From Armatimonadota bacterium (GTDB lineage: Bacteria; Armatimonadota; Fimbriimonadia; Fimbriimonadales; Fimbriimonadaceae), in NCBI GenBank assembly GCA_027451905.1, contig DAIDHV010000001.1, forward strand, positions 534,667-598,666: a stretch of 64,000 nt of DNA. The letters are read 5' to 3'. The notes under the pieces were generated by a model. The model had not been told where the DNA came from. It made no database searches and saw only the letters and a list, made by a program, of their open reading frames with translations. Each line of letters starts with the position of its first letter. The first letter of the stretch is position 1. This document shows positions 43,734 to 55,827 of this stretch, piece after piece. The position numbers and the translations under genes were made by a program.

Positions 43734-44102
43734 ATGTTAAAAGTGCAGAGCCTTGGTCAGATTGCGTACCAGGTTCAGGATGTCCAAAAGAGTACGGAGT
43801 TTTTTCGAGATGTGGTGGGCCTGCCTTTTCTGTTTTCAGCAGGGCCCAACCTTGCTTTCTTTGATCTCAACGGCTGTCGGCTAATGGTAACTCGTGACGG
43901 AAGCCAACAGGAGACCAGGAATTCTATCCTTTACTTTTTAGTGAACTCTATTAACGAGGCTTATGAGGCTCTGGATGGCCAAGTCAAGCGAGTAGATGAA
44001 CCCCACCTGATTGCGGAAATGGCAGATCACGATCTTTATATGTTTTTTATTGAAGATGGTCAGGGAAACACAGTTGGGTTTATGGAAGAAAGGCCAAAGT
44101 AA
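43734..44102 (+). CDS. VOC-family small protein, copy 1
   Basis: This 122-residue protein is counted from ATG 43734; the longer frame from 43656 crosses the upstream terminator. It has two VOC-fold halves (LGQIAYQVQDVQKSTEFF; then SILYFLVNSINEAYEAL) and the late motif GQGNTVGFMEE, where the final Glu normally coordinates metal. FSAGPNLAFFDLNG and DHDLYMFFIEDG are shared with the copy at 47654. It stands 45 nt before a large secreted STN-type gene, an arrangement repeated at 47654-50161. The function is unknown. Confidence 0.8.
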   Translation: MLKVQSLGQIAYQVQDVQKSTEFFRDVVGLPFLFSAGPNLAFFDLNGCRLMVTRDGSQQETRNSILYFLVNSINEAYEALDGQVKRVDEPHLIAEMADHDLYMFFIEDGQGNTVGFMEERPK

Positions 44103-44116
44103 AGAACGTACGTTCT
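44103..44116. promoter_or_regulatory. 14-bp perfect palindrome upstream of STN-type gene 1
   Basis: AGAACGTACGTTCT is its own reverse complement and starts directly after the VOC1 stop codon, 31 nt before ATG 44148. It contains GAAC-N4-GTTC, the core of LexA boxes of Firmicutes/Actinobacteria type. A 14-bp palindrome is expected a few times by chance in 64 kb, so the placement, not the motif alone, makes it notable. Confidence 0.35.
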
Positions 44117-44147
44117 GCTTTAGAGTGTCTATATTACGGTAAGGCCT

Positions 44148-46256
44148 ATGGCAGTTCGTCCTTTTTTCAATTGCGCTTCCGTTGCTGTTTTTTGTTCGTT
44201 GTCGATGCTGAGTGGTCAGTCTTTGGCGGCTCAGAATGATCAAAAGCTAATCACTCTTGATGCTCCGGGATGGTCACTAAGGAGGATTTGTTCTGCTATT
44301 TCTAGCCAAATTGGCCAGCAGGTTGAGCCACACGGAAGTTGCGTTGATGACTACCTGATCATTCATGTCCACAATGTTCCATGGCCCACTCTTATGAAGA
44401 AACTGGCTTGGGTTGAATATGGCAAGTGGTACATGGACGGCAATACCCTTACTTTAGAGACGGACAAAGAGTTGGTGGCAGCGAGAATCCAACAGAATGA
44501 AGATGCACTTGCCCAGCGGCTAGCCGATCAGTTCAAAAAAGATGCGGCAACATCGTCGGCTCCGTTCAATTCCAACGAACTGGTTAAGGAACTCAAACTT
44601 AAAGCCGACCTCTATGCGCGAAAGGATACAAGCAATGAGCCCGCCAATGTCAAAGAGTCATTGGGAATTGAGTACGCATCTATCCGGCTTCGGTCAAAAA
44701 TGCCTCTTCACGCTGGATTCAAAAAAATAATCGAGTCCTTTCCTCCCAAAGATCTTGCTGAGATTCCCAACGGGGGGCGATTCGTTTTTTCTAACCACCC
44801 CACTTCCCTTCAATATGCAATGCCGGCAACGGCTATGACCGTGATTAAGCAGGCGGTCGCCAATCAGCTCAAATTAATTAAAGCGGCTCGATCTGCGGGG
44901 ATAACCCTCCGGGACATGCAATGCAATGGGAGCCCCGCTAATATATCGCTTGACGACACCTTCGAAGTGTCCGCTCGTCAGAGTTTTGGCATTGGCATTC
45001 AGGCCAGCTTCAGGATCTTCGGACCAAAGGGCGATCTTGTCTTGCAAGATTCTAGACAATTTGGATTCCTCGGCGCCGGCATGAATCTCAATCTAACTCC
45101 GAAAAATGAACTTTATAAGAAATTAGACCCCGTCGCTGCCCAGAACTTTAAATCTTTGAATCTGTTTAGCTCTATCCCACCATCTCCGGAATTCCGCTAT
45201 ATTCTGAGGCACCCTGAAAAGTTTGACCCTCTTGCAGTTGTTCTTGAGCCCATTCTTAAAGTGATTGCCCCTCAAGAAAACATCCTTATTCGAAATGACT
45301 ACCTCCTTTTTTTGGCGTCAGGGACGGACGTGTTCAAGAATGGAGATGAAGTTCCTATGAACCTTTTGACCTCCGCAATTGCAAAAATGGTTTCGGACGA
45401 GGATACAAATCAAAACTGGCTCGCCCTTAGGACAAACTATGTGATTACCAGCGCATTGCAGTCAATCCCTCGTGCTCAATACCAAGACCTCATTCAAGGA
45501 ATTTCCACGAACGGTCTCGTTGATTTTTTAAGCGCGGTGAAGTATGCGGGGGCGGTAGGTCCTTCGGGCTATTTTAGCGGCCAATTAACTAGCCCTTTCG
45601 TTTCTGCCCTCGCTTACGGGCAAAACCCCTTAGAGCAGGACCAGCAAAATTGGATGATTTTCAGCCTTGTCGGGTCGCTTGATGCTGGTCAATTGGCACA
45701 AGCTCAAAGCTCTCGCGGCTTAAACATGGCTGAACTTCCTTCCGAACCGGCTAAAATATTCAAGAAAATCTTGCTTGATAAGTTTATCACGGGACTAATC
45801 TATGCTCAGGGCGGAAGGATTCCAATGCAAAAACCAACCATCATAGAAGATGAGCCGACCTATGCATTTGCCAATTCCATGCCAAAGGCGATCCTTTCAA
45901 TCCAAGTTAAGCGAAACGATGTCATTCTCTACAGCTACAAATTTGAAAATGCAGGCTTACCTTCTAGCCCTCAGCAAAACCTAGCTTCTGATCCCACCAC
46001 ATTTGCAGAGACAATCTATTCTCAAAAATTCAACCATCAAATGCATTATGACTTCAGCCATCTCCGGGTTTCGCCTCAAGAGACGGTAACGATTTCAATT
46101 TTATTTCCAGAAACAAAGATGGCAGCTCTCACCGCTCAATTTGTTACCCGCGCCCACACCACCCAAGTCTATTCTGGTTGGCAAGAACTTCCAGCCCCAC
46201 TGAAAACCAAGATTGAATCTCAATTGAAAAAGATGAACTATAAGCCGGGAAATTAA
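44148..46256 (+). CDS. Large secreted protein with STN-like N-terminal domain, paralog 1
   Basis: This 702-residue exported protein has a signal peptide ending near SLAAQN. Residues ~35-110 follow the secretin/TonB short N-terminal (STN) pattern: LITLDAPGWSLRRICSAISS, IGQQVEPHGSC, then HVHNVPWPTLMKKLAWVEYG and a DGNTLTLE end. Two cysteines (RRIC and HGSC) are conserved in all three paralogs and may form a disulfide. The remaining ~590 residues match no family I know. Shared blocks include FSNHPTSLQY, HPEKFDPLAV, GSLDAGQLAQAQ and DEPTYAFANSMPKA. No secretin or TonB channel domain is present. It follows VOC copy 1. Confidence 0.82.
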   Translation: MAVRPFFNCASVAVFCSLSMLSGQSLAAQNDQKLITLDAPGWSLRRICSAISSQIGQQVEPHGSCVDDYLIIHVHNVPWPTLMKKLAWVEYGKWYMDGNTLTLETDKELVAARIQQNEDALAQRLADQFKKDAATSSAPFNSNELVKELKLKADLYARKDTSNEPANVKESLGIEYASIRLRSKMPLHAGFKKIIESFPPKDLAEIPNGGRFVFSNHPTSLQYAMPATAMTVIKQAVANQLKLIKAARSAGITLRDMQCNGSPANISLDDTFEVSARQSFGIGIQASFRIFGPKGDLVLQDSRQFGFLGAGMNLNLTPKNELYKKLDPVAAQNFKSLNLFSSIPPSPEFRYILRHPEKFDPLAVVLEPILKVIAPQENILIRNDYLLFLASGTDVFKNGDEVPMNLLTSAIAKMVSDEDTNQNWLALRTNYVITSALQSIPRAQYQDLIQGISTNGLVDFLSAVKYAGAVGPSGYFSGQLTSPFVSALAYGQNPLEQDQQNWMIFSLVGSLDAGQLAQAQSSRGLNMAELPSEPAKIFKKILLDKFITGLIYAQGGRIPMQKPTIIEDEPTYAFANSMPKAILSIQVKRNDVILYSYKFENAGLPSSPQQNLASDPTTFAETIYSQKFNHQMHYDFSHLRVSPQETVTISILFPETKMAALTAQFVTRAHTTQVYSGWQELPAPLKTKIESQLKKMNYKPGN

Positions 46257-46480
46257 CCGCTTTAGCGATCCTGTTGATTTGAGAGGTTCCAGGTTGAATA
46301 ACAACCTTGCTATTTGTGAATTGATAGGTTTTGTTCAGCGGACCAATCATCGGTACTAAACCGCAATCTCAACCCGATTTTGTCTGGTTAAGCTAAGCTG
46401 AAATAAAGGTGGTCCGCCCCCGTAAATTGAAGACATCATAACTAGAGTTCTTCTCGTCAAGAAAATACGAAGAGAAGACA

Positions 46481-46786
46481 ATGAAAAGATCAAGATTCAG
46501 CGACGAGCAAATCGTTCGCATATTGCAAGAGGCTCAGACGGGCCAGTTGACGGTGAGTGAGACCTGTCGCAAGCATGGTTTAAGTGAGCCGACATATTAT
46601 ATTTGGAAACGCAAGTTCCAGGGGATGGAAACAGATGATGTTCGTCGTTTGCGTGAACTAGAACGCGAGAACGCCATTCTCAAAAAACTGCTTGCTGAGA
46701 GAGACTTAGAAGTAGACGCAGTCCGGAGCCTCCTCCGAAAAAACGGATGGTCGCTCCCGTGCGAGTCTCGGGGGCGAAATTCCTGA
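46481..46786 (+). CDS. IS3-family transposase OrfA
   Basis: This 101-residue OrfA has an HTH_Tnp_1-type DNA-binding domain (FSDEQIVRILQEAQTG, VSETCRKHGLSEPTYYIWKR) and a leucine-zipper-like helix (LRELERENAILKKLLAERDL). It binds the terminal repeats and regulates transposition. An A6 run at 46738-46743 near its end lies within the overlap with orfB, which is in the -1 frame. Programmed frameshifting there would fuse OrfA and OrfB into the active OrfAB transposase, as in other IS3 elements. Confidence 0.93.
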   Translation: MKRSRFSDEQIVRILQEAQTGQLTVSETCRKHGLSEPTYYIWKRKFQGMETDDVRRLRELERENAILKKLLAERDLEVDAVRSLLRKNGWSLPCESRGRNS

Positions 46787-47616
46787 TGCAACAAGGAGTG
46801 ACTACAAGGCGTGCAAGCTATATTTGCAACTTGTCCACCGCTGAGCTTTATCGCCAGAAGCGGCCAGATCACAATGAAGAGCTTCGCAGGCGCCTTCTTG
46901 AAATCGCAAGGCCTGGCGCTGGCTATCGCCAGCTCTGGGCGACGGTCAAGGAGGAATTTGCGCCCTTGAACATCAAGCGGGTCTATCGCCTGTATCGCCA
47001 ATTGAACATGGCTAAGAAAGTTAGATATCGCAAGAAACGCTCAGGGAATTTGCTTGTTCAATGTGCGACTGGTCCAAACCAAGTTTGGTGCCTTGACTTT
47101 TGCCATGACTGGGCGATGAACGGAACAAAACTCAAGATCCTTGCGATTAAAGATGAATTCACCAAAGAATGTTTGAGCTTGGAGGTCGCAACATCGATCA
47201 CTGGTCATAAAGTTCGCGATGTGTTAGGCCAAACCATTGCTAACTATGGTGCGCCTGCGTACCTGCGAAGTGATAATGGTCCAGAGTTCATCTCAAGAGC
47301 GCTGAGCTTGTATTTAGCCGAGACTGGCGTAAAGAGTCATTTCATCAAACCAGGTTCGCCCTGGCAAAACGGTCATGCTGAGAGTTTCATGTCTAGGCTC
47401 CGAGCTGAATGTCTCAATGCTGAAGTCTTTGCAAACCTTGCGGACGCTCAGCTTAAGTTGCACCTGTTCCGCAGCTTCTACAACCAAGAGCGGCCCCACT
47501 CCGCCTTAAATTACAAGACTCCGGACTCCTATCGCACTGGTTACTGTGAACTCAGTCGGGCTACGCCCTCCCTCGTTCACAGTAACCAGATATCATCAAA
47601 GGAGAACTCTATTTAA
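46747..47616 (+). CDS. IS3-family transposase OrfB (DDE integrase core)
   Basis: This 289-residue integrase-fold catalytic part has the DDE triad visible as Asp in QVWCLDFCHDW, Asp in LRSDNGPEFIS and Glu in WQNGHAESFMSRLRAE, with the family ending FYNQERPHSALNYKTP. The reading frame is intact, with no stop or frameshift beyond the natural orfA/orfB junction. The nominal ATG 46747 may not be used; expression is probably by -1 frameshift from orfA. The element therefore looks potentially active. Confidence 0.93.
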   Translation: MVAPVRVSGAKFLMQQGVTTRRASYICNLSTAELYRQKRPDHNEELRRRLLEIARPGAGYRQLWATVKEEFAPLNIKRVYRLYRQLNMAKKVRYRKKRSGNLLVQCATGPNQVWCLDFCHDWAMNGTKLKILAIKDEFTKECLSLEVATSITGHKVRDVLGQTIANYGAPAYLRSDNGPEFISRALSLYLAETGVKSHFIKPGSPWQNGHAESFMSRLRAECLNAEVFANLADAQLKLHLFRSFYNQERPHSALNYKTPDSYRTGYCELSRATPSLVHSNQISSKENSI

Positions 47617-47653
47617 ACTGACTTCAATAAAAGGGGCAGGTCAAAGGCTTGAT

Positions 47654-48034
47654 ATGCTAAATTCCCGTTATCATTTGGGCCAAATTGCCTGGCAAGTTCA
47701 AAACGTTCAAAATGTCAGTTCCTTTTTTCCAGAGGTTCGTGGATGCCCGTTTCTCTTTTCGGCAGGACCCAATCTCTCCTTCTTTGACCCCTGGGGGGTT
47801 CGCTTGATGATCACTTCGGATCGAAGCAACGCCCCTGCATCAAACTCCGTCATTTACTTTCGTGTTCAATCGGTGGACGATACCTATGCTGCGATCAAAG
47901 ACAAGGTAACCGCGGTTGATCAGCCTCACTTGGTTGCAAACATGCCCGACCATGATCTGTACATGTTCTTTATTGAGAATCCGTAGAAAAATACGATTGG
48001 GTTCATGGAAAAGCGCAAAAATGGGGCGAAATAG
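47654..48034 (+). pseudogene. VOC-family small protein, copy 2, with in-frame TAG near the 3' end
   Basis: This is a paralog of the gene at 43734, sharing LGQIAWQVQNV, PFLFSAGPNLSFFD and PDHDLYMFFIEN. At 47984-47986 a TAG stands where copy 1 has the CAG (Gln) of EDGQGNTVGF, so one C-to-T change explains it. The frame resumes with KNTIGFMEKRKNGAK to a second TAG at 48034. The truncated product (111 residues) loses the last strand and its Glu, so activity is doubtful. The IS element lies 10 bp upstream of its ATG and has duplicated the AAGG of its RBS. Confidence 0.8.
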
Positions 48035-48067
48035 GCGTCTAAGAGGGAAGCCATCCCATAAACCAAT

Positions 48068-50161
48068 ATGAAAATAAATAAACTGGCCCAATCCTTTGCT
48101 TGGATTTTGTTATCACTTCCCGCAGTCGCAAATTCGAGGACGCCCACCAATCAATCTCAAAAATTGGTGAGCCTCGATGCTCCGGGATGGCCTTTAAGAA
48201 GGATTTGCGCTTCAATCTCCAAGCAAATTGGGCAGCAGGTTGAGCCACACGGATCTTGTGTGACTGATGTGCTTATTGTTCATGTCCACAACGTGCCTTG
48301 GCCCGTTCTTATGAAGAAACTGGCGTGGGTTGAGTACGGCAAATGGTACCGAGACGGTAGCACCCTGACATTAGAAAGAGACAAAGCTCAAATTACCGCA
48401 AAGCAGCAAGAAAACGCCGATCTACTTGCAAAGAGGCTGGTGGATCAGTTCAAAAAGGAAGATGCCGTCAACGACTTGCCCTTTGATGCCACCGCACTCG
48501 CCAGGGAAATCAAACTGGCAGTAGATGACTACGTTCGCAAGCACAAAGTCCCCAACGAAACCACTGTTGAAGAATCGGAGCAGGGCGCAGAGTCAGTAAT
48601 ATTCGAACTGCGAAATAAAATGCCGCTTGTTGTGGGCTTCGACGAAATTCTCGAGTCACTACCATTGAAGAGACTCGCTGAACTTCAGGTGGGACACCGC
48701 ATTGTATTTTCCAATCACCCAACTTCGCTTCAGTATTCAATTCCGGATAAGGCAACAAAGATCCTAAGCAACCTTATTGCTAACACGACTGCATTTCGTG
48801 ACGCTCTGATAGCGGACGGAATGCAAAGTCTTTTGAAAATGCCCTATCTAGGCCTTGGCGATCTTCGCCCAAGCGATGTCTTTGAGATTTCGGTAAAGAA
48901 ATTCAGAAGTGATGATATCGATGCTACATTTCGGATTTTCGGCCCCCTTGGTTCTCTTATCACTGGTGATGAAAAATTATTCCGCTTAGGAGATGAAGAC
49001 CAGCAAGGGGTCCCTCTAATCAATAATGTGCCGACGGCAAACCTAAGCCCCGCGAATGTCCGGAACTATAGGGTGCTAATTAATCCTTCCGAAGAGGTAG
49101 CTTCGCCTCAACTTAGGCATATGTTGAGGCATCCTGAAAAGTATGATCCGCTTGCTGTGATGCTAGATCCGATTTTGAAGGCGACTGAACCTGGCAAAAA
49201 TATGATCATTAATGATGACCTACTTATAGGGGCTCTTGTGTCAGATGTTACATTTTGCCCAGCCGCAAAAATCCCCAAAAACGTTCTTTCGGACCGCTAC
49301 TTTAAGTCTGTCTCCGAACAACAATCTACTGCGACCTGGTTGATCTGCCGCCCGGACCACGTTTTTCGATACTTCCATCAAGGCACACCCCAAGCCATCC
49401 CGCGCGCCGCCTATCGAGACCTTATTCACGGAATTGCACGCAATGGAATGATGAACTTTATGAGTGCAATGAGATTTGTAAGTAGCTTTGGACCCAACGG
49501 GTACTTTTTAAGCCCAGCAATCGATCGATATCTTGAAGTCCTTACCTATAACACCAATTCACTTGAACAATTTGCTCCTTTTCGCCAAAGCTGGCTTGTC
49601 TTTGACCTCGCAGGATCGCTTGATGCAAGCAAGCTTGCCCAGGCTGAAACGCCTAAGGGTCTCAACCTTGCTCAACTTCCATCAAAGCCCGCAAATGTTC
49701 TCAAGGCGATTTTGTTCGATAAGTTCAGCTATAACCGTGACGGGTGGGTAACTACGATTCAGGGAGAGCCCACTAATGCATTTGCAACTTCCATGCCTGC
49801 AGCTAGGCTCACAATTACTTCAAAAAAAGAAACTGTCTACACCTATAACTTTCAATATCCAAATGTTCCTGAAAAATTTACGGTGGCCATCCCTCTGGAC
49901 ATGCTCGCTTCGAGTATAGAGATTGCAAAATATCACCCTAAAATGCACCCTAGAATTACAAGATTAAGATTGGAGCCACAGCTAACCATAACCTTGAAAG
50001 TAACAATTTGGGGTCGCAAGTTTCCAATAGGAATCGCTACTTTTGTAACGCGAGGCTTCACTAAAAAAGTGTATCCGACGTGGCATGACTTTCCTTCCCG
50101 CGAAAAGTCTGAAATTGAATCTGATTTAAAGAAGCTTGCGCTTCCAGCCAGGCACCAATAG
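48068..50161 (+). CDS. Large secreted protein with STN-like N-terminal domain, paralog 2
   Basis: This 697-residue exported protein has a signal peptide ending near AVANSRT. The STN-like domain (~35-110) contains LVSLDAPGWPLRRICASISK, IGQQVEPHGSC and HVHNVPWPVLMKKLAWVEYG; both conserved cysteines are kept. Outside that domain it is the most divergent of the three. It keeps FSNHPTSLQY, HPEKYDPLAV and GSLDASKLAQAE, but its C-terminus (TIWGRKFPIGIATFVTRGF) and tail differ. No membrane anchor is visible after the signal peptide. It lies 33 nt after the broken VOC copy 2. Confidence 0.82.
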   Translation: MKINKLAQSFAWILLSLPAVANSRTPTNQSQKLVSLDAPGWPLRRICASISKQIGQQVEPHGSCVTDVLIVHVHNVPWPVLMKKLAWVEYGKWYRDGSTLTLERDKAQITAKQQENADLLAKRLVDQFKKEDAVNDLPFDATALAREIKLAVDDYVRKHKVPNETTVEESEQGAESVIFELRNKMPLVVGFDEILESLPLKRLAELQVGHRIVFSNHPTSLQYSIPDKATKILSNLIANTTAFRDALIADGMQSLLKMPYLGLGDLRPSDVFEISVKKFRSDDIDATFRIFGPLGSLITGDEKLFRLGDEDQQGVPLINNVPTANLSPANVRNYRVLINPSEEVASPQLRHMLRHPEKYDPLAVMLDPILKATEPGKNMIINDDLLIGALVSDVTFCPAAKIPKNVLSDRYFKSVSEQQSTATWLICRPDHVFRYFHQGTPQAIPRAAYRDLIHGIARNGMMNFMSAMRFVSSFGPNGYFLSPAIDRYLEVLTYNTNSLEQFAPFRQSWLVFDLAGSLDASKLAQAETPKGLNLAQLPSKPANVLKAILFDKFSYNRDGWVTTIQGEPTNAFATSMPAARLTITSKKETVYTYNFQYPNVPEKFTVAIPLDMLASSIEIAKYHPKMHPRITRLRLEPQLTITLKVTIWGRKFPIGIATFVTRGFTKKVYPTWHDFPSREKSEIESDLKKLALPARHQ

Positions 50162-50345
50162 ATGAACACCACACTTAGAATAAAGGTTGGTGAAATGGGC
50201 TGGTCGGCGAGCTCTGTGAATTGTTCTTGGCTAGGGTTGCTTGGTGCCTTGCGCCAAGCGGGCTACCCGCAAGAGAAAATCGCAATGATTCAATCATGCA
50301 AAAATCCATATTTGCCTTAACTTGATACAATAGCGAGTAACCAAA

Positions 50346-52427
50346 ATGAAAAAGATGACAGATAATATGCGCCGATACCTGCCGATTGTTTGCTTCATTG
50401 GAATGGGTTTCACCCAAGTTGCCTTGTCTAGCCAGACCGTACAATCGGTGACTTTAGATGCTCCCGGGTGGTCTTTAAGGCGGATTTGCGCTTCAATCTC
50501 CAAGCAGATTGGGCAGCAAGTTGAACCCCATGGATCTTGTGTGACTGACGTGCTTATTGTTCATGTCCACAATGTTCCATGGCCCACACTTATGAAGAAG
50601 CTGGCATGGGTGGAATATGGCAAGTGGTACATGGATGGCAACGTTCTCACGATCGAGCGAGACCATGCCCTTGTCCAAGCAAAGATCAAAGAGAATGTGG
50701 GCGCCCTAGCCAAACGGCTCGCCATCCAATTCAAAAAAGATGCCAATTCCAACCGGGCCTCCTTCGATCCCAATGCACTCGTTAAGGAACTGAAAATCAA
50801 GGTTGATCAAGACTCAAGGAAACAGCCAGGGAGCGAACCGGCTGATGTCAGACAGGAAATGGGAGTTGAAAATGGATACATTCAGCTTCAGATCGAAAAC
50901 AAATTGCCATTACAAAGAGGATTCAATAAAATCATTGAATCTTTTCCGCCCCAAGATCTTGCCGCGATTCCCAATGGAGCGCGCGTCGTCTTTTCCAATC
51001 ATCCGACGTCCCTCCAATATCGGCTTCCCGCTTCCGCATCCAGCGAAATTGAAAAGATCATTGCGAACCAGCACGAGTTCGAAAAAGCGGCCAGTGCGCA
51101 TGGGATTGCTTTGCCTGAATTTCAGTTTGGACAAGACCTGAAAAGCCTTTCCTTGAATGACACATTTGTCGTCTCTGTTCGCCAGATCTTAGGCATTGGC
51201 ATTCAAGCTGCCTTGCGGGTCTTTAATCAAAAGGGATCCATGATTAGCGAGTCAAACGGACAGTTTGGACTCCTCGGTCAAGGAATGTCGCTCGGCTCTG
51301 CATCAAAAAAGGTATCGACTGCCAAACTAGATGCGGTTGATGCCCGCAATTACAAGTCGCTAGCCCAATTCAGCCCGCTCCCTCCAACCCCTCAATTTAG
51401 ACAAGTTTTGCTCCATCCCGAAAAATTCGATCCCCTTGCGGTTGCGATCGAGCCAATCCTTAAGGCTATTGCCCCAAAAAAGAATGTCGTTATTCGCAAT
51501 GACAGCCTCATAATGATGACTACGGGAGCATACCAATTTAAGAATGGAGATGAGGTGCCCCTTGATTATCTTTCTTCGCCGATTGTGAAATTGGTGGCGG
51601 ATGAAGAATCAAGCCCAGAGTGGCTTGCGATTCGAACAAATTACATTACCCTTCTCAAGGGTCAGTCGATCCCCCGCTCCCCTTATGAAGACCTTGTCCA
51701 AGGAATCTCCTCCGATGGTCTTCTCAACTTTCTGTCCGCGATGAAATTTGCATCGGCAACCGGACCGGAAAGCTTTATTGTCAGCATGTTCGTGAGTCCG
51801 TTTATCGGAGCTTTGACGGACGGGCAGAACCCGCTGCTTGCCAACCAACGAACCTGGAACTTCTACTGCCTAGTCGGTTCGCTTGATGCCGGACAATTGG
51901 CTCAGGCAGAGAGAAAAACAGGACTTGACTTAGCCGGTCTCTTCTCTGAGCAACAAAAGATTTTGAAGTTGATTCTCCTCGATAAGTTCACCCATGCATA
52001 CTCAAATCGAATGCAGGTTCCCGTTTCCCTCGCTGACGAACCGACATACGCCTACGCTCAGTCAATGCCCCATGCAGTGTTGACGATTCGTTCCAAAGAA
52101 GAACCGGTGATTGGCTTTTCAAGCAAGTACGGCGATGATCTCAAATACCCCAAAATGACTCAGTATGCCACCGCCGATGAAATTGCAGGAACGATGGCGA
52201 GCATTAAATACAACCCGCAAGTCCACTACGATTTCACTCATCTGACCCTTTCGCGCCAGCAAACGGTGACAATGACAATCTCCTTTCCCGGCACCACAAT
52301 GGCAGCAATCGCAGCTCGTTTCGTGACCCGCACCCATAACAATCAGGTTTATTCCAGTTATAAGGATTTGCCAGCCCCGCTGAATCAGGAGATCGAAACC
52401 ACCCTCAAAAAGATGAAGGCGAGATGA
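50346..52427 (+). CDS. Large secreted protein with STN-like N-terminal domain, paralog 3
   Basis: This 693-residue exported protein has a signal peptide at ~10-30 (YLPIVCFIGMGFTQVALSSQ). Its STN-like segment (~37-110) is nearly identical at protein level to paralog 2 in the first half (ICASISKQIGQQVEPHGSCV) and to paralog 1 in the second half (LMKKLAWVEYGKWYMDGN), while the body resembles paralog 1 (FNKIIESFPPQDLAAIPNGA; GIGIQAALRVF; GSLDAGQLAQAE). No VOC gene precedes it; the 184-bp gap upstream shows no recognisable VOC remnant. An in-frame second ATG lies at 50355. Confidence 0.82.
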   Translation: MKKMTDNMRRYLPIVCFIGMGFTQVALSSQTVQSVTLDAPGWSLRRICASISKQIGQQVEPHGSCVTDVLIVHVHNVPWPTLMKKLAWVEYGKWYMDGNVLTIERDHALVQAKIKENVGALAKRLAIQFKKDANSNRASFDPNALVKELKIKVDQDSRKQPGSEPADVRQEMGVENGYIQLQIENKLPLQRGFNKIIESFPPQDLAAIPNGARVVFSNHPTSLQYRLPASASSEIEKIIANQHEFEKAASAHGIALPEFQFGQDLKSLSLNDTFVVSVRQILGIGIQAALRVFNQKGSMISESNGQFGLLGQGMSLGSASKKVSTAKLDAVDARNYKSLAQFSPLPPTPQFRQVLLHPEKFDPLAVAIEPILKAIAPKKNVVIRNDSLIMMTTGAYQFKNGDEVPLDYLSSPIVKLVADEESSPEWLAIRTNYITLLKGQSIPRSPYEDLVQGISSDGLLNFLSAMKFASATGPESFIVSMFVSPFIGALTDGQNPLLANQRTWNFYCLVGSLDAGQLAQAERKTGLDLAGLFSEQQKILKLILLDKFTHAYSNRMQVPVSLADEPTYAYAQSMPHAVLTIRSKEEPVIGFSSKYGDDLKYPKMTQYATADEIAGTMASIKYNPQVHYDFTHLTLSRQQTVTMTISFPGTTMAAIAARFVTRTHNNQVYSSYKDLPAPLNQEIETTLKKMKAR

Positions 52428-52630: not shown

Positions 52631-53473
52631 ATGTTTCCGCTCATTCCCGTCTTCCTGGTTGCCCGACAGACGCCCAAGTTCGGCAACCCTGTGACCGGCA
52701 ATCCGTCGGTCGTCGGCGACCTTCGACTCTTCCCGAACTTTGAATCTCGCATTCTCCACAATCAAAGGACCCTGAGAGTTTGGCTACCGCCCGGATACTT
52801 CCACCACCCAACCAAGCGCTATCCGGTGCTGTACATGGAGGATGGTCAGAACTTGTTCGACAAAGCCTTGTCGCCATTCTCCCATGCCGAGTGGAGATGC
52901 GATGAGACGGCGATGGCTTTGATCAAAAGCAAGCTCATTCCACCCCTGATTATTGTTGGAATTGATAACCTGGACCGGGAAGACGAGTATTTGCCAACAT
53001 ACGATTCCAAACTGAAATATGGTGGGAAAGCCAATTTGTACTGCAAGTTTGTCGTCAAAGAAGTCAAGCCTTTTATAGACAGAACTTTTAGAACCAAGCC
53101 AGATCGCGCAAACACAGCAACAGGAGGGTCGTCATTTGGATCTGTCATTTCCCTCTACTTAGAAATGCAATATCCGCAAGTCTTCTCTAAACTGATGCTT
53201 TGCTCAACCGCTCCTTGGCCAGATCACCACCGAATTTACAAGCTTTTGAAGGCATACAAGTCTAAACTAAACACGAAGATATGGGAAGATATTGGCACTG
53301 CCGAAGGTGGAAATCAGGTTGAAGATTCCAACACCCTAGCCAAGCTGCTAGAGCAGCATGGACTTGTGCTTGGGAAATCTCTGGCATACTTTGTAGACTA
53401 CAGGGCCATTCACTCAGAAACTGCGTGGCAGCGAAGATTTGGAATGGCACTCCTGTTCCTCTACTCAAAATGA
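52631..53473 (+). CDS. Alpha/beta-hydrolase, putative esterase (esterase D-like)
   Basis: This 280-residue protein of the PF00756-type esterase group has RTLRVWLPPGYFHHPTKRYP then VLYMEDGQNLFDKAL (~45-75), the nucleophile in TATGGSSFGSVIS (~Ser170) and a C-terminal His in AIHSETAWQRRF (~262). The oxyanion-hole and acid residues lie in between as usual. The family includes siderophore and feruloyl esterases and S-formylglutathione hydrolases. The hydrophobic start MFPLIPVFLVA is short and not a convincing signal peptide. It overlaps the double-SGNH gene by 4 nt, suggesting joint function. Confidence 0.82.
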   Translation: MFPLIPVFLVARQTPKFGNPVTGNPSVVGDLRLFPNFESRILHNQRTLRVWLPPGYFHHPTKRYPVLYMEDGQNLFDKALSPFSHAEWRCDETAMALIKSKLIPPLIIVGIDNLDREDEYLPTYDSKLKYGGKANLYCKFVVKEVKPFIDRTFRTKPDRANTATGGSSFGSVISLYLEMQYPQVFSKLMLCSTAPWPDHHRIYKLLKAYKSKLNTKIWEDIGTAEGGNQVEDSNTLAKLLEQHGLVLGKSLAYFVDYRAIHSETAWQRRFGMALLFLYSK

Positions 53474-54981
53474 TGACAATGAAGAGATCCCGTGTTGGAA
53501 TTCGGCACATTCTGCTGAGCGGAATGGTCCTTTTGGCTGCCATCGGCTCGCAGTCCGCCGTCGCCCAAAATCGCACTTCAACCACTCCAGACGGATCCAT
53601 TGTTCTGAATAATTGGGCACAACGGTGGAAGGACAAGCTTGCCCTTGTTAAAAAAGGAGGCGTGGGTCTCCTTTTTATGGGGGATTCTATAACCCACTTT
53701 TGGGATGAGCCGCAGAACCAGTCCACTTTTAGTTCTTACTTTGGAGGGTGGCACCCCTTGGATGTGGGAATCAGCGGAGCCAGAACCGAGACCTTGTTGT
53801 GGATGCTTCAGAACGGAATCGTGAAGGGCATTTCTCCCAAGGTCGTCGTCCTACTCATTGGCACCAACAATGCCGACGGGGTCCATTTTCCCCATGCCGA
53901 CAGCCCTTGGGGGATTGCGGGAGGCGTGCGCGCGATTGTTGCCGAATTGAGACGCCAACTGCCAAACTCAAAAATTCTTCTCTTGAATATCTTCAACCGA
54001 GGCGATCTTAAAGATGCCGAGCAACGAGTGATTGCGACCAATAAACTGCTGCAGGGTCTTGGCGATGACAAGCACATTTTTCAATTGAATCTCAACGCGA
54101 TCTGGCTGGACAAACAAGGGCATATTGATCCCAAACTCATGCCGGATCTGCTGCATCCCAGCCCCCTTGGATATTTGAAGTGGGCACGAGCCTTGCGTCC
54201 TTCCTTAGTGAAATTAATGGGTGAACCGGGCAACAATGCGATTGTGCCTCAGCCAGGGGTAGAGCACGACATCTATAACTGGCAAGATCGCCACAAGGCA
54301 GAACTGGTTTATGGCGCCACTCATCATGCCAACCTCATTTTTGTGGGTGACAGCATCACTCACTTTTGGGGCGGAGAACCAGCCGCCAATTTGTCAAGAG
54401 GACAACTTTGCTGGGACTATTACTATGGAGATAGGAAAGCAATCAACCTAGGATTTGGGTGGGATCGCACCCAACAAGTCCTTTGGAGATTTGATCATGG
54501 TGAATTAAAGGGGCAAGATCCCAAAGCTGCCGTAGTCCTGATCGGCACCAATAACCTCACCCCAAGCGTGGATCGCAGCAACTCCAATCAAGAAATTATT
54601 GCCGGCATCCATGCCGTTGTCGAGGACTTGCATCAGCACTGCCCTCACACCCACATCATCTTGATGGGATTATTGCCACGGGGAGAGGATCCCAATGACA
54701 TTTTAAGGGTGAGAATCCAAGAGATCAATAAAAAGCTATCTGCCTACGCGGCTGGGTGGGGCGTTTCCTATATTGACTGCGGTCCCTTGCTGCTTGCGCC
54801 GTCCGGAGCCTTCATAGCCGGAACCACGGTGGACTACTTGCATCCCACCGAGGAGGGTTACCAGCTGATTGCCAACGCCCTAGAACCTTTGATTTCTAAA
54901 CGGCTTGGAGTTCCCGCAAAGCCACCCATGCCCGGATTCTTCTCTCGGCCCCTTCAAAGTAAGCCAGATAAACATTTGTAA
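53470..54981 (+). CDS. Secreted protein with two tandem SGNH/GDSL hydrolase domains
   Basis: This 503-residue protein is counted from ATG 53470 (overlapping the esterase stop as ATGA). A signal peptide ends near SAVAQN. Two complete SGNH domains follow, each resembling platelet-activating-factor acetylhydrolase IB. Domain 1 (~40-240) has GDSITHFW, GISGARTETLLW, IGTNNAD and DLLHPSPLGY. Domain 2 (~265-480) has GDSITHFWGGE, GFGWDRTQQVLWR, IGTNNLT and DYLHPTEEGY. All catalytic blocks are present twice. Such enzymes deacetylate glycans or lipids. Possible partners are the adjacent esterase and, nearby, the GH127 glycosidase. Confidence 0.88.
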   Translation: MMTMKRSRVGIRHILLSGMVLLAAIGSQSAVAQNRTSTTPDGSIVLNNWAQRWKDKLALVKKGGVGLLFMGDSITHFWDEPQNQSTFSSYFGGWHPLDVGISGARTETLLWMLQNGIVKGISPKVVVLLIGTNNADGVHFPHADSPWGIAGGVRAIVAELRRQLPNSKILLLNIFNRGDLKDAEQRVIATNKLLQGLGDDKHIFQLNLNAIWLDKQGHIDPKLMPDLLHPSPLGYLKWARALRPSLVKLMGEPGNNAIVPQPGVEHDIYNWQDRHKAELVYGATHHANLIFVGDSITHFWGGEPAANLSRGQLCWDYYYGDRKAINLGFGWDRTQQVLWRFDHGELKGQDPKAAVVLIGTNNLTPSVDRSNSNQEIIAGIHAVVEDLHQHCPHTHIILMGLLPRGEDPNDILRVRIQEINKKLSAYAAGWGVSYIDCGPLLLAPSGAFIAGTTVDYLHPTEEGYQLIANALEPLISKRLGVPAKPPMPGFFSRPLQSKPDKHL

Positions 54982-55017: not shown

Positions 55018-55827
55018 CTAGTCTGTGCTCTTTGCCGTCATGACCTTGGACATCCCTACAAATCCACTTTCTGGCCCCACAAACCCAAACTGTCGGTAGT
55101 AATCGGCTTGATGGGCGCCGGTAAAAAGGCACACAAAAGCATTGGGAGCTGCGTTTTCTGCTAGCCAATGATCCAAAGCCCGTATGAGTTTCTTGCCAAT
55201 TCCCTGACTTTGGAACTGAGGAAGAACCATAACGTCTCCCACAATGTGAATAAAGCGGCCATCACCTGCCAAAGACGCAGCCCCGATAAGAGAATCATTG
55301 TAAATGGCTACCGCGGTGACCTCGAGCCTCGAAATCTGATCGGGAACATTGGGACGATGAATAAATTGGCCCCAGCCCACCGCATCGCTTAACGTCTGGT
55401 GCTCCTCGGGAGTGAGCTTACGATATTCAATTTTAACCCCTTCTAACTCTTCTTTAGCCTGAGAACCGCGCCTCAAGGCTTGGGCAAAGGTAAGAATGTG
55501 GCCATCTGGATCCTCGATCGAGAATTCTAGGAACCCATGGGCTGCCACCGACGGCTCCCTTAAAATCTTGGCCCCAAAATCAGCGGCAAGCTCATGAATG
55601 TGGTCCACGCCATCGGAACGAATCCAAATTTTTTGAGGTGTGATGGCAACTTCGGACCTTTCAAACTGAATCTGGGCCGCATCAAGGGCAAGACCTCCAA
55701 CCGAGGCAGGATCGCCATAGAGCCAAACACCGCCAAACCCAATTCCGGTGTAAAAGGCAACTGAGCTTTCTACACTTTTAACCGGCAAAACCGGCTGTGC
55801 AGAGAGTCCGGCAAACTTTTGAGCCAT
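55018..55827 (-). CDS. Fusion of VOC-family and GNAT acetyltransferase domains
   Basis: This 269-residue protein has an N-terminal VOC half (~8-120: AQPVLPVKSVESSVAFYTGI, then FLEFSIEDPDGHILTFAQAL) resembling bleomycin-resistance proteins, and a C-terminal GNAT domain (~135-265: VMVLPQFQSQGIGKKLIRAL is the acetyl-CoA-binding loop, with FTGAHQADYYRQFGF near the end). Both domains look complete. Combinations like this occur in drug or small-molecule modification, but the substrate is unknown. It is convergent with the SGNH gene (36-nt gap). Confidence 0.87.
   Translation of the reverse strand: MAQKFAGLSAQPVLPVKSVESSVAFYTGIGFGGVWLYGDPASVGGLALDAAQIQFERSEVAITPQKIWIRSDGVDHIHELAADFGAKILREPSVAAHGFLEFSIEDPDGHILTFAQALRRGSQAKEELEGVKIEYRKLTPEEHQTLSDAVGWGQFIHRPNVPDQISRLEVTAVAIYNDSLIGAASLAGDGRFIHIVGDVMVLPQFQSQGIGKKLIRALDHWLAENAAPNAFVCLFTGAHQADYYRQFGFVGPESGFVGMSKVMTAKSTD

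Follow-up and report, generated by a model that had tools for sequence, protein, structure and literature searches.

Tandem paralogues of an undescribed multicopy family of predicted exported two-STN proteins in Armatimonadota, with secretin docking as a tentative role

The question raised by this locus is whether three large genes standing in a row, two of them preceded by a small VOC-like reading frame, constitute a new two-gene system or whether the large proteins have an identity of their own. The array lies in the window, i.e., the whole stretch of 64,000 nucleotides analysed here, where the forward strand encodes paralogue A (44148..46256, 702 aa), paralogue B (48068..50161, 697 aa), and paralogue C (50346..52427, 693 aa), the last of them with no VOC gene upstream. 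These three open reading frames are placed as an earlier note, made from the DNA alone, had reported, and their paralogy, with 56% identity between C and A and 44% between C and B, is certain and beyond chance. All three are predicted to be exported and contain two STN-type domains. The same note had called them secreted: a hydrophobic N-terminal export segment is indeed present in 53 of 54 family members according to a crude hydropathy test, whereas export itself is what we infer from hydropathy. A cysteine pair described as conserved is found in A, B, C, and the paralogue C3:298400, but not in the family at large, where the two columns hold Cys in 6/54 and 5/54 members.

The head of the large proteins, STN1, comprises residues 34-106 in A (44247..44465, forward strand) and C (50445..50663, forward strand) and residues 33-105 in B (48164..48382, forward strand). 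Its proposed STN-like nature is borne out by a match to the PilQ N0 profile (E 5e-4; E 9e-5 when the head profile of distant members is used) and by structure. The predicted elements of the model (E34-43 H44-55 E58-61 E69-78 H79-89 E92-97 E100-105, with E for strand and H for helix) follow the beta-alpha-beta-beta-alpha-beta-beta order that places STN1 in the STN/N0 fold; in VIA comparison, STN1 of C scores practically equally with the cell-surface signalling domain of PupR (Z 8.4) and the secretin N0 domain of EscC (Z 8.2), and the first-ranked Foldseek match of the C model is the PilQ N0 domain (residues 34-106). In Pfam searches, STN was matched weakly by 7 of 18 distant heads and FecR_C, also weakly, by 3 of the 18. 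No Pfam match was obtained in A, B, or C, none of the window proteins reaching the PF07660 cut-off, and the only PF07660 match in the host genome is C1:339651, outside the window. Thus, STN1 shares its fold and a detectable sequence similarity with STN (PF07660) and secretin N0 domains (PilQ, GspD, EscC, InvG). However, unlike secretins, A, B, and C contain no channel, as had been noted earlier: neither the secretin channel domain PF00263 nor plug profiles are matched in them, the secretins of the genome are encoded elsewhere, and STN1 is followed by a body of about 590 residues with a second STN-like domain. They differ from TonB-dependent transducers in that no plug match follows the STN domain in A, B, or C.

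The body had been described as unique. It belongs to no recognised family or fold, but it is not wholly unique, since it includes the second domain, STN2, located at residues 360-439 in A (45225..45464) and B (49145..49384) and at residues 362-441 in C (51429..51668), all on the forward strand. This domain was recognised by profile comparison via distant members, in which an STN-like segment precedes a conserved 'LTLDD...LRLYG' stretch and matches STN1 with 95.9% probability. In hhalign comparisons, whose single-pair P-values are not calibrated against a database, the distant STN2 is matched by the window STN1 profile with P 9e-9 and by residues 372-447 of C with P 2e-8, while the direct comparison of window STN1 with window STN2 gives P 7e-4 only. 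As a control, a 70-residue segment was slid along the body and compared with the STN1 profile: the STN2 segment yielded P ~1e-8, and segments clear of the STN2 region yielded 0.009 or worse (elsewhere ~0.05 or worse). STN2 therefore resembles STN1 more closely than the rest of the protein does; for the window proteins, this holds by way of distant members only. VIA on the whole body model, where the domain sits within the body and is not folded alone, does not report STN2 as STN-like. A second STN-like domain, degenerate in the window proteins (residues ~362-441 of C), is thus supported through intermediates at the level of sequence profiles.

AlphaFold2 with the family alignment gives a confident model for C (pLDDT 86.2, pTM 0.86), and the model of the body alone is confident as well (pLDDT 88.6, pTM 0.89). 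Compared with the PDB as domains within the whole body, the body model finds a best VIA Z of 3.6 and no Foldseek match below E 0.1. Several hotdog-fold rows (Z 2.1-2.7) were judged noise, and Hsp82, the sole match of the body profile against PDB sequences (E 0.24), was judged to be due to chance. In this confident model, the body outside STN2 would therefore have no recognised PDB fold, which falls short of proving a new one. The overall layout is well supported: a signal segment, STN1, a helical and small beta region, STN2, a helical region, and a C-terminal beta domain.

No family in Pfam or NCBIfam covers the large proteins (A, B, C, and 36 members), and no description of the family was found in open-licence papers. 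A profile built from 36 members, matched by A among others, detects the family in 82 of 85 genomes of the taxonomic family and in every listed genome of the order outside it, with weaker matches through much of the phylum Armatimonadota. A profile of the body only (residues 112-693 of C) shows a similar distribution, again with weaker matches outside the order. Members outside the order likewise combine an export segment with an STN-type head before the body, and some of them are organised in tandem arrays; a tblastn search of plasmids with one distant member gave no match. The host genome contains about nine family genes, detected as ten matched stretches: A, B, C, C3:298400, C3:115464, a tandem pair on C7, C2:21271, and one gene that runs off the end of contig C6. 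The three proteins of the array are therefore not the whole set. The membership of A, B, and C in an undescribed, phylum-wide, multicopy family of predicted exported proteins is well supported, and we are highly confident that this family is real and that its two-STN layout is unusual. In this respect, the earlier picture of an unnamed, exported, STN-headed, non-channel family amplified in tandem is upheld. This gives an identity to a large set of predicted exported proteins that lacked annotation in a little-studied phylum, with about nine genes in this genome and several dozen in the 12 genomes counted.

In a tree of 66 rows, A and C are sisters, joined successively by B and by C3:298400 and C3:115464, and all five constitute one group with a support of 100. 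The members of the arrays of three other genomes (G013, G017, and G004) mostly group by genome as well. Tandem duplication in this family has, as read from the sequences, occurred repeatedly and within separate lineages. The deep branching order is unsure because many terminal branches are long. Apart from these arrays, a family member stands beside leuS with conserved synteny in four genomes (L026, L044, L015, L053), an old orthologous position among many lineage-specific copies. In a distant genome of the phylum, a partial member is followed by five full-length members in a row (L062:31-11023), an array outside the order.

As for function, the leading hypothesis, albeit a weak one, is that the large proteins dock to secretins. 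After export, the proteins would be soluble in the periplasm or at the cell surface, where their STN domains may mediate protein-protein docking. The most likely partners would be envelope machines built on a secretin, of the type II secretion or type IV pilus kind, rather than TonB receptors; such machines are present in the genome, which has three secretins. Repeated duplication could have generated variants with different partners or cargoes. TonB receptors were rejected as partners because no plug domain was detected anywhere in the host genome.

The neighbourhoods of family members offer two independent cases of adjacency to secretin operons. In the first, the member of the host genome that is truncated where contig C6 ends (L083:14704-16218) lies directly upstream of gspE, at a gap of ~0.94 kb, and is followed by a type II secretion set composed of gspE, F, G, H, I, J, K, L, M, and D. 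In the second, found in two genomes of one genus (G159 and G162), members at L088:4522-6494, whose frame is split in two, and at L089:4587-6737 stand directly upstream of an operon encoding an ExeA-like ATPase, a pilM-like protein, and a secretin; in the same genus, another member and gspD lie on opposite strands, 4-5 kb apart with intervening genes. Such adjacency to secretin operons is rare, with these two cases set against the several dozen members that the 12 compared genomes contain. Most members stand alone, gene clustering within 5 kb is mostly housekeeping synteny (leuS, fba, pdhA, rluD-like) together with abundant pseudopilin-like genes, and no consistent recurrent functional neighbour was found within that distance. 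Secretin docking is considered weak because the adjacency came to light post hoc and is missing for most members. We therefore regard this mechanism as tentative and, taken alone, somewhat improbable, although we favour it over FecR-like signalling and rate it roughly equal to a ligand-binding or enzymatic body. Its most specific form, in which phylum-wide exported two-STN adaptors with a body fold outside the PDB dock to the secretins of type II secretion and type IV pili and were diversified by repeated tandem duplication, as a machine accessory not described elsewhere, is less probable still. For the combined reading, i.e., lineage-specific tandem paralogues of an undescribed family that probably dock to secretin-type envelope machines, our confidence is evenly balanced, since the identity is well supported and the mechanism is not. 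If secretin docking were true, the family would add a novel type of accessory component to secretion or pilus machines; in any case, it now has a domain layout and a testable partner in the secretins.

The nearest competitor to secretin docking, itself rather doubtful, is that the body is a secreted domain with a new fold, either enzymatic or ligand-binding, for which the STN domains would be mere spacers and whose paralogues would bind different extracellular substrates. The confident body model with no PDB match, the C-terminal beta region, and the lineage-specific expansions, usual for surface or secreted proteins, are consistent with this proposal. However, the alignment of 53 body sequences holds no set of invariant catalytic residues: only P, Q, P, D, R, and P reach 90%, and none of them is invariant.

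More unlikely is a role in cell-surface signalling, where the STN domains would contact anti-sigma factors or receptors in a relay of the FecR/PupR type. The top structural match of STN1 to PupR, although tied with secretin N0, the weak FecR_C matches among the distant heads, and the occurrence of a sigma-factor-like gene near members in three genomes are what suggests it. Nevertheless, that neighbour was seen in only 3 of about 45 genomes examined and at variable distance, the host genome has no detected TonB plug domain, and no anti-sigma domain was found in 36 members. Hence, the large proteins share with the PupR/FecR anti-sigma regulators an STN-like subdomain but differ from them in being free, predicted exported proteins with no anti-sigma domain, in a genome where no TonB plug was found.

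Returning to secretin docking as the preferred, if weak, reading, the small genes of the array would have no part in it. The first of them, VOC1 (43734..44102, forward strand), is an intact gene for a VOC-superfamily (glyoxalase-like) protein of 122 aa, which matches PF00903 (Glyoxalase), a VOC-fold profile, with E 1.1e-7 and 32.7 bits against a cut-off of 20.6; the first small VOC gene of the earlier note is thus real. VOC1 is placed at the level of the superfamily, to which glyoxalase and FosB-like proteins belong, and in relatives it is no partner of the large proteins. VOC2 (47654..47986, forward strand) resembles VOC1 with 58% identity and one TAG inside. This in-frame stop, at codon 111, removes the last 15 codons, which still match the end of VOC1 (KNTIGFMEKRKNGAK), the matching reading running to 48031. 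In consequence, VOC2 has no last conserved Glu-containing strand (GFMEKR), and in VOC enzymes that strand generally bears a metal ligand. Because the match to VOC1 persists after the in-frame TAG to its very end, VOC2 reads as a copy in decay, provided that the stop is not an artefact of the assembly. Therefore, of the unit that had been described as a VOC gene plus a large protein, occurring twice and followed by a third paralogue alone, VOC1 with A and the solitary C are confirmed, whereas an intact second VOC gene is not.

Nor is the array a plain repeat of such a unit, as had been supposed, for an insertion element of 1.23 kb, overlooked at that stage, separates A from VOC2 (~46410..47643, forward strand). 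Its two overlapping transposase frames, orfA (46481-46786) and orfB (46747-47616), both on the forward strand, its imperfect terminal repeats (TGGTCCGCCCC/TGACCTGCCCC), and AAGG on both flanks accompany an element which we take to be of the IS3 type from its general features rather than from a database. It ends 10 bp upstream of the VOC2 start. Since its end fragments recur at seven other places of the assembly, the element is multicopy; at least three of these places are contig ends, and its copies are probably behind assembly breaks.

VOC1 orthologues with 42-54% identity were found in 6 of 84 relatives (85 genomes searched), and no family member stands beside any of them within the flanks read, which extend ~9 kb in either direction and are shorter where one contig ends. 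The earlier note had named absence of VOC linkage in relatives as one of two findings that would speak against its proposal, and linkage is absent in all six. Moreover, a search of all fetched family loci with VOC1 and VOC2 gave matches only in the window and in those six VOC loci, and no VOC1-like neighbour of C or of the other paralogues was found in the genome. As no linkage was found in the relatives or at the other family loci read, the pairing is best read, from gene order, as a single local neighbourhood duplicated once, with the VOC genes as passengers. A functional two-gene module for sensing, scavenging, or detoxification, amplified in tandem, is therefore largely refuted and very improbable: each of the two VOC genes precedes a large paralogue on its own strand, with a gap of only 45 bp between VOC1 and A, but VOC2 is truncated, the six orthologues are unlinked, and neither the other paralogues nor any family locus outside the window, in the stretch read, has a VOC1-like gene. 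A tempting but false system is thus removed. The suggestion of a defence-type module finds no support: recurrent neighbours are housekeeping genes, and none of six proteins matched a PADLOC model at E 0.1, an absence that is in itself compatible with defence.

Other reading frames near the array deserve mention. Downstream, an ORF at 53425-54981 (forward strand) contains two apparent SGNH/GDSL hydrolase repeats with two GDSITHFW motifs and is adjoined by a PF00756 esterase at 52631-53473. Close by, an ORF at 55018-55827 (reverse strand) looks, as judged from its sequence, like a VOC domain fused to a GNAT acetyltransferase domain.
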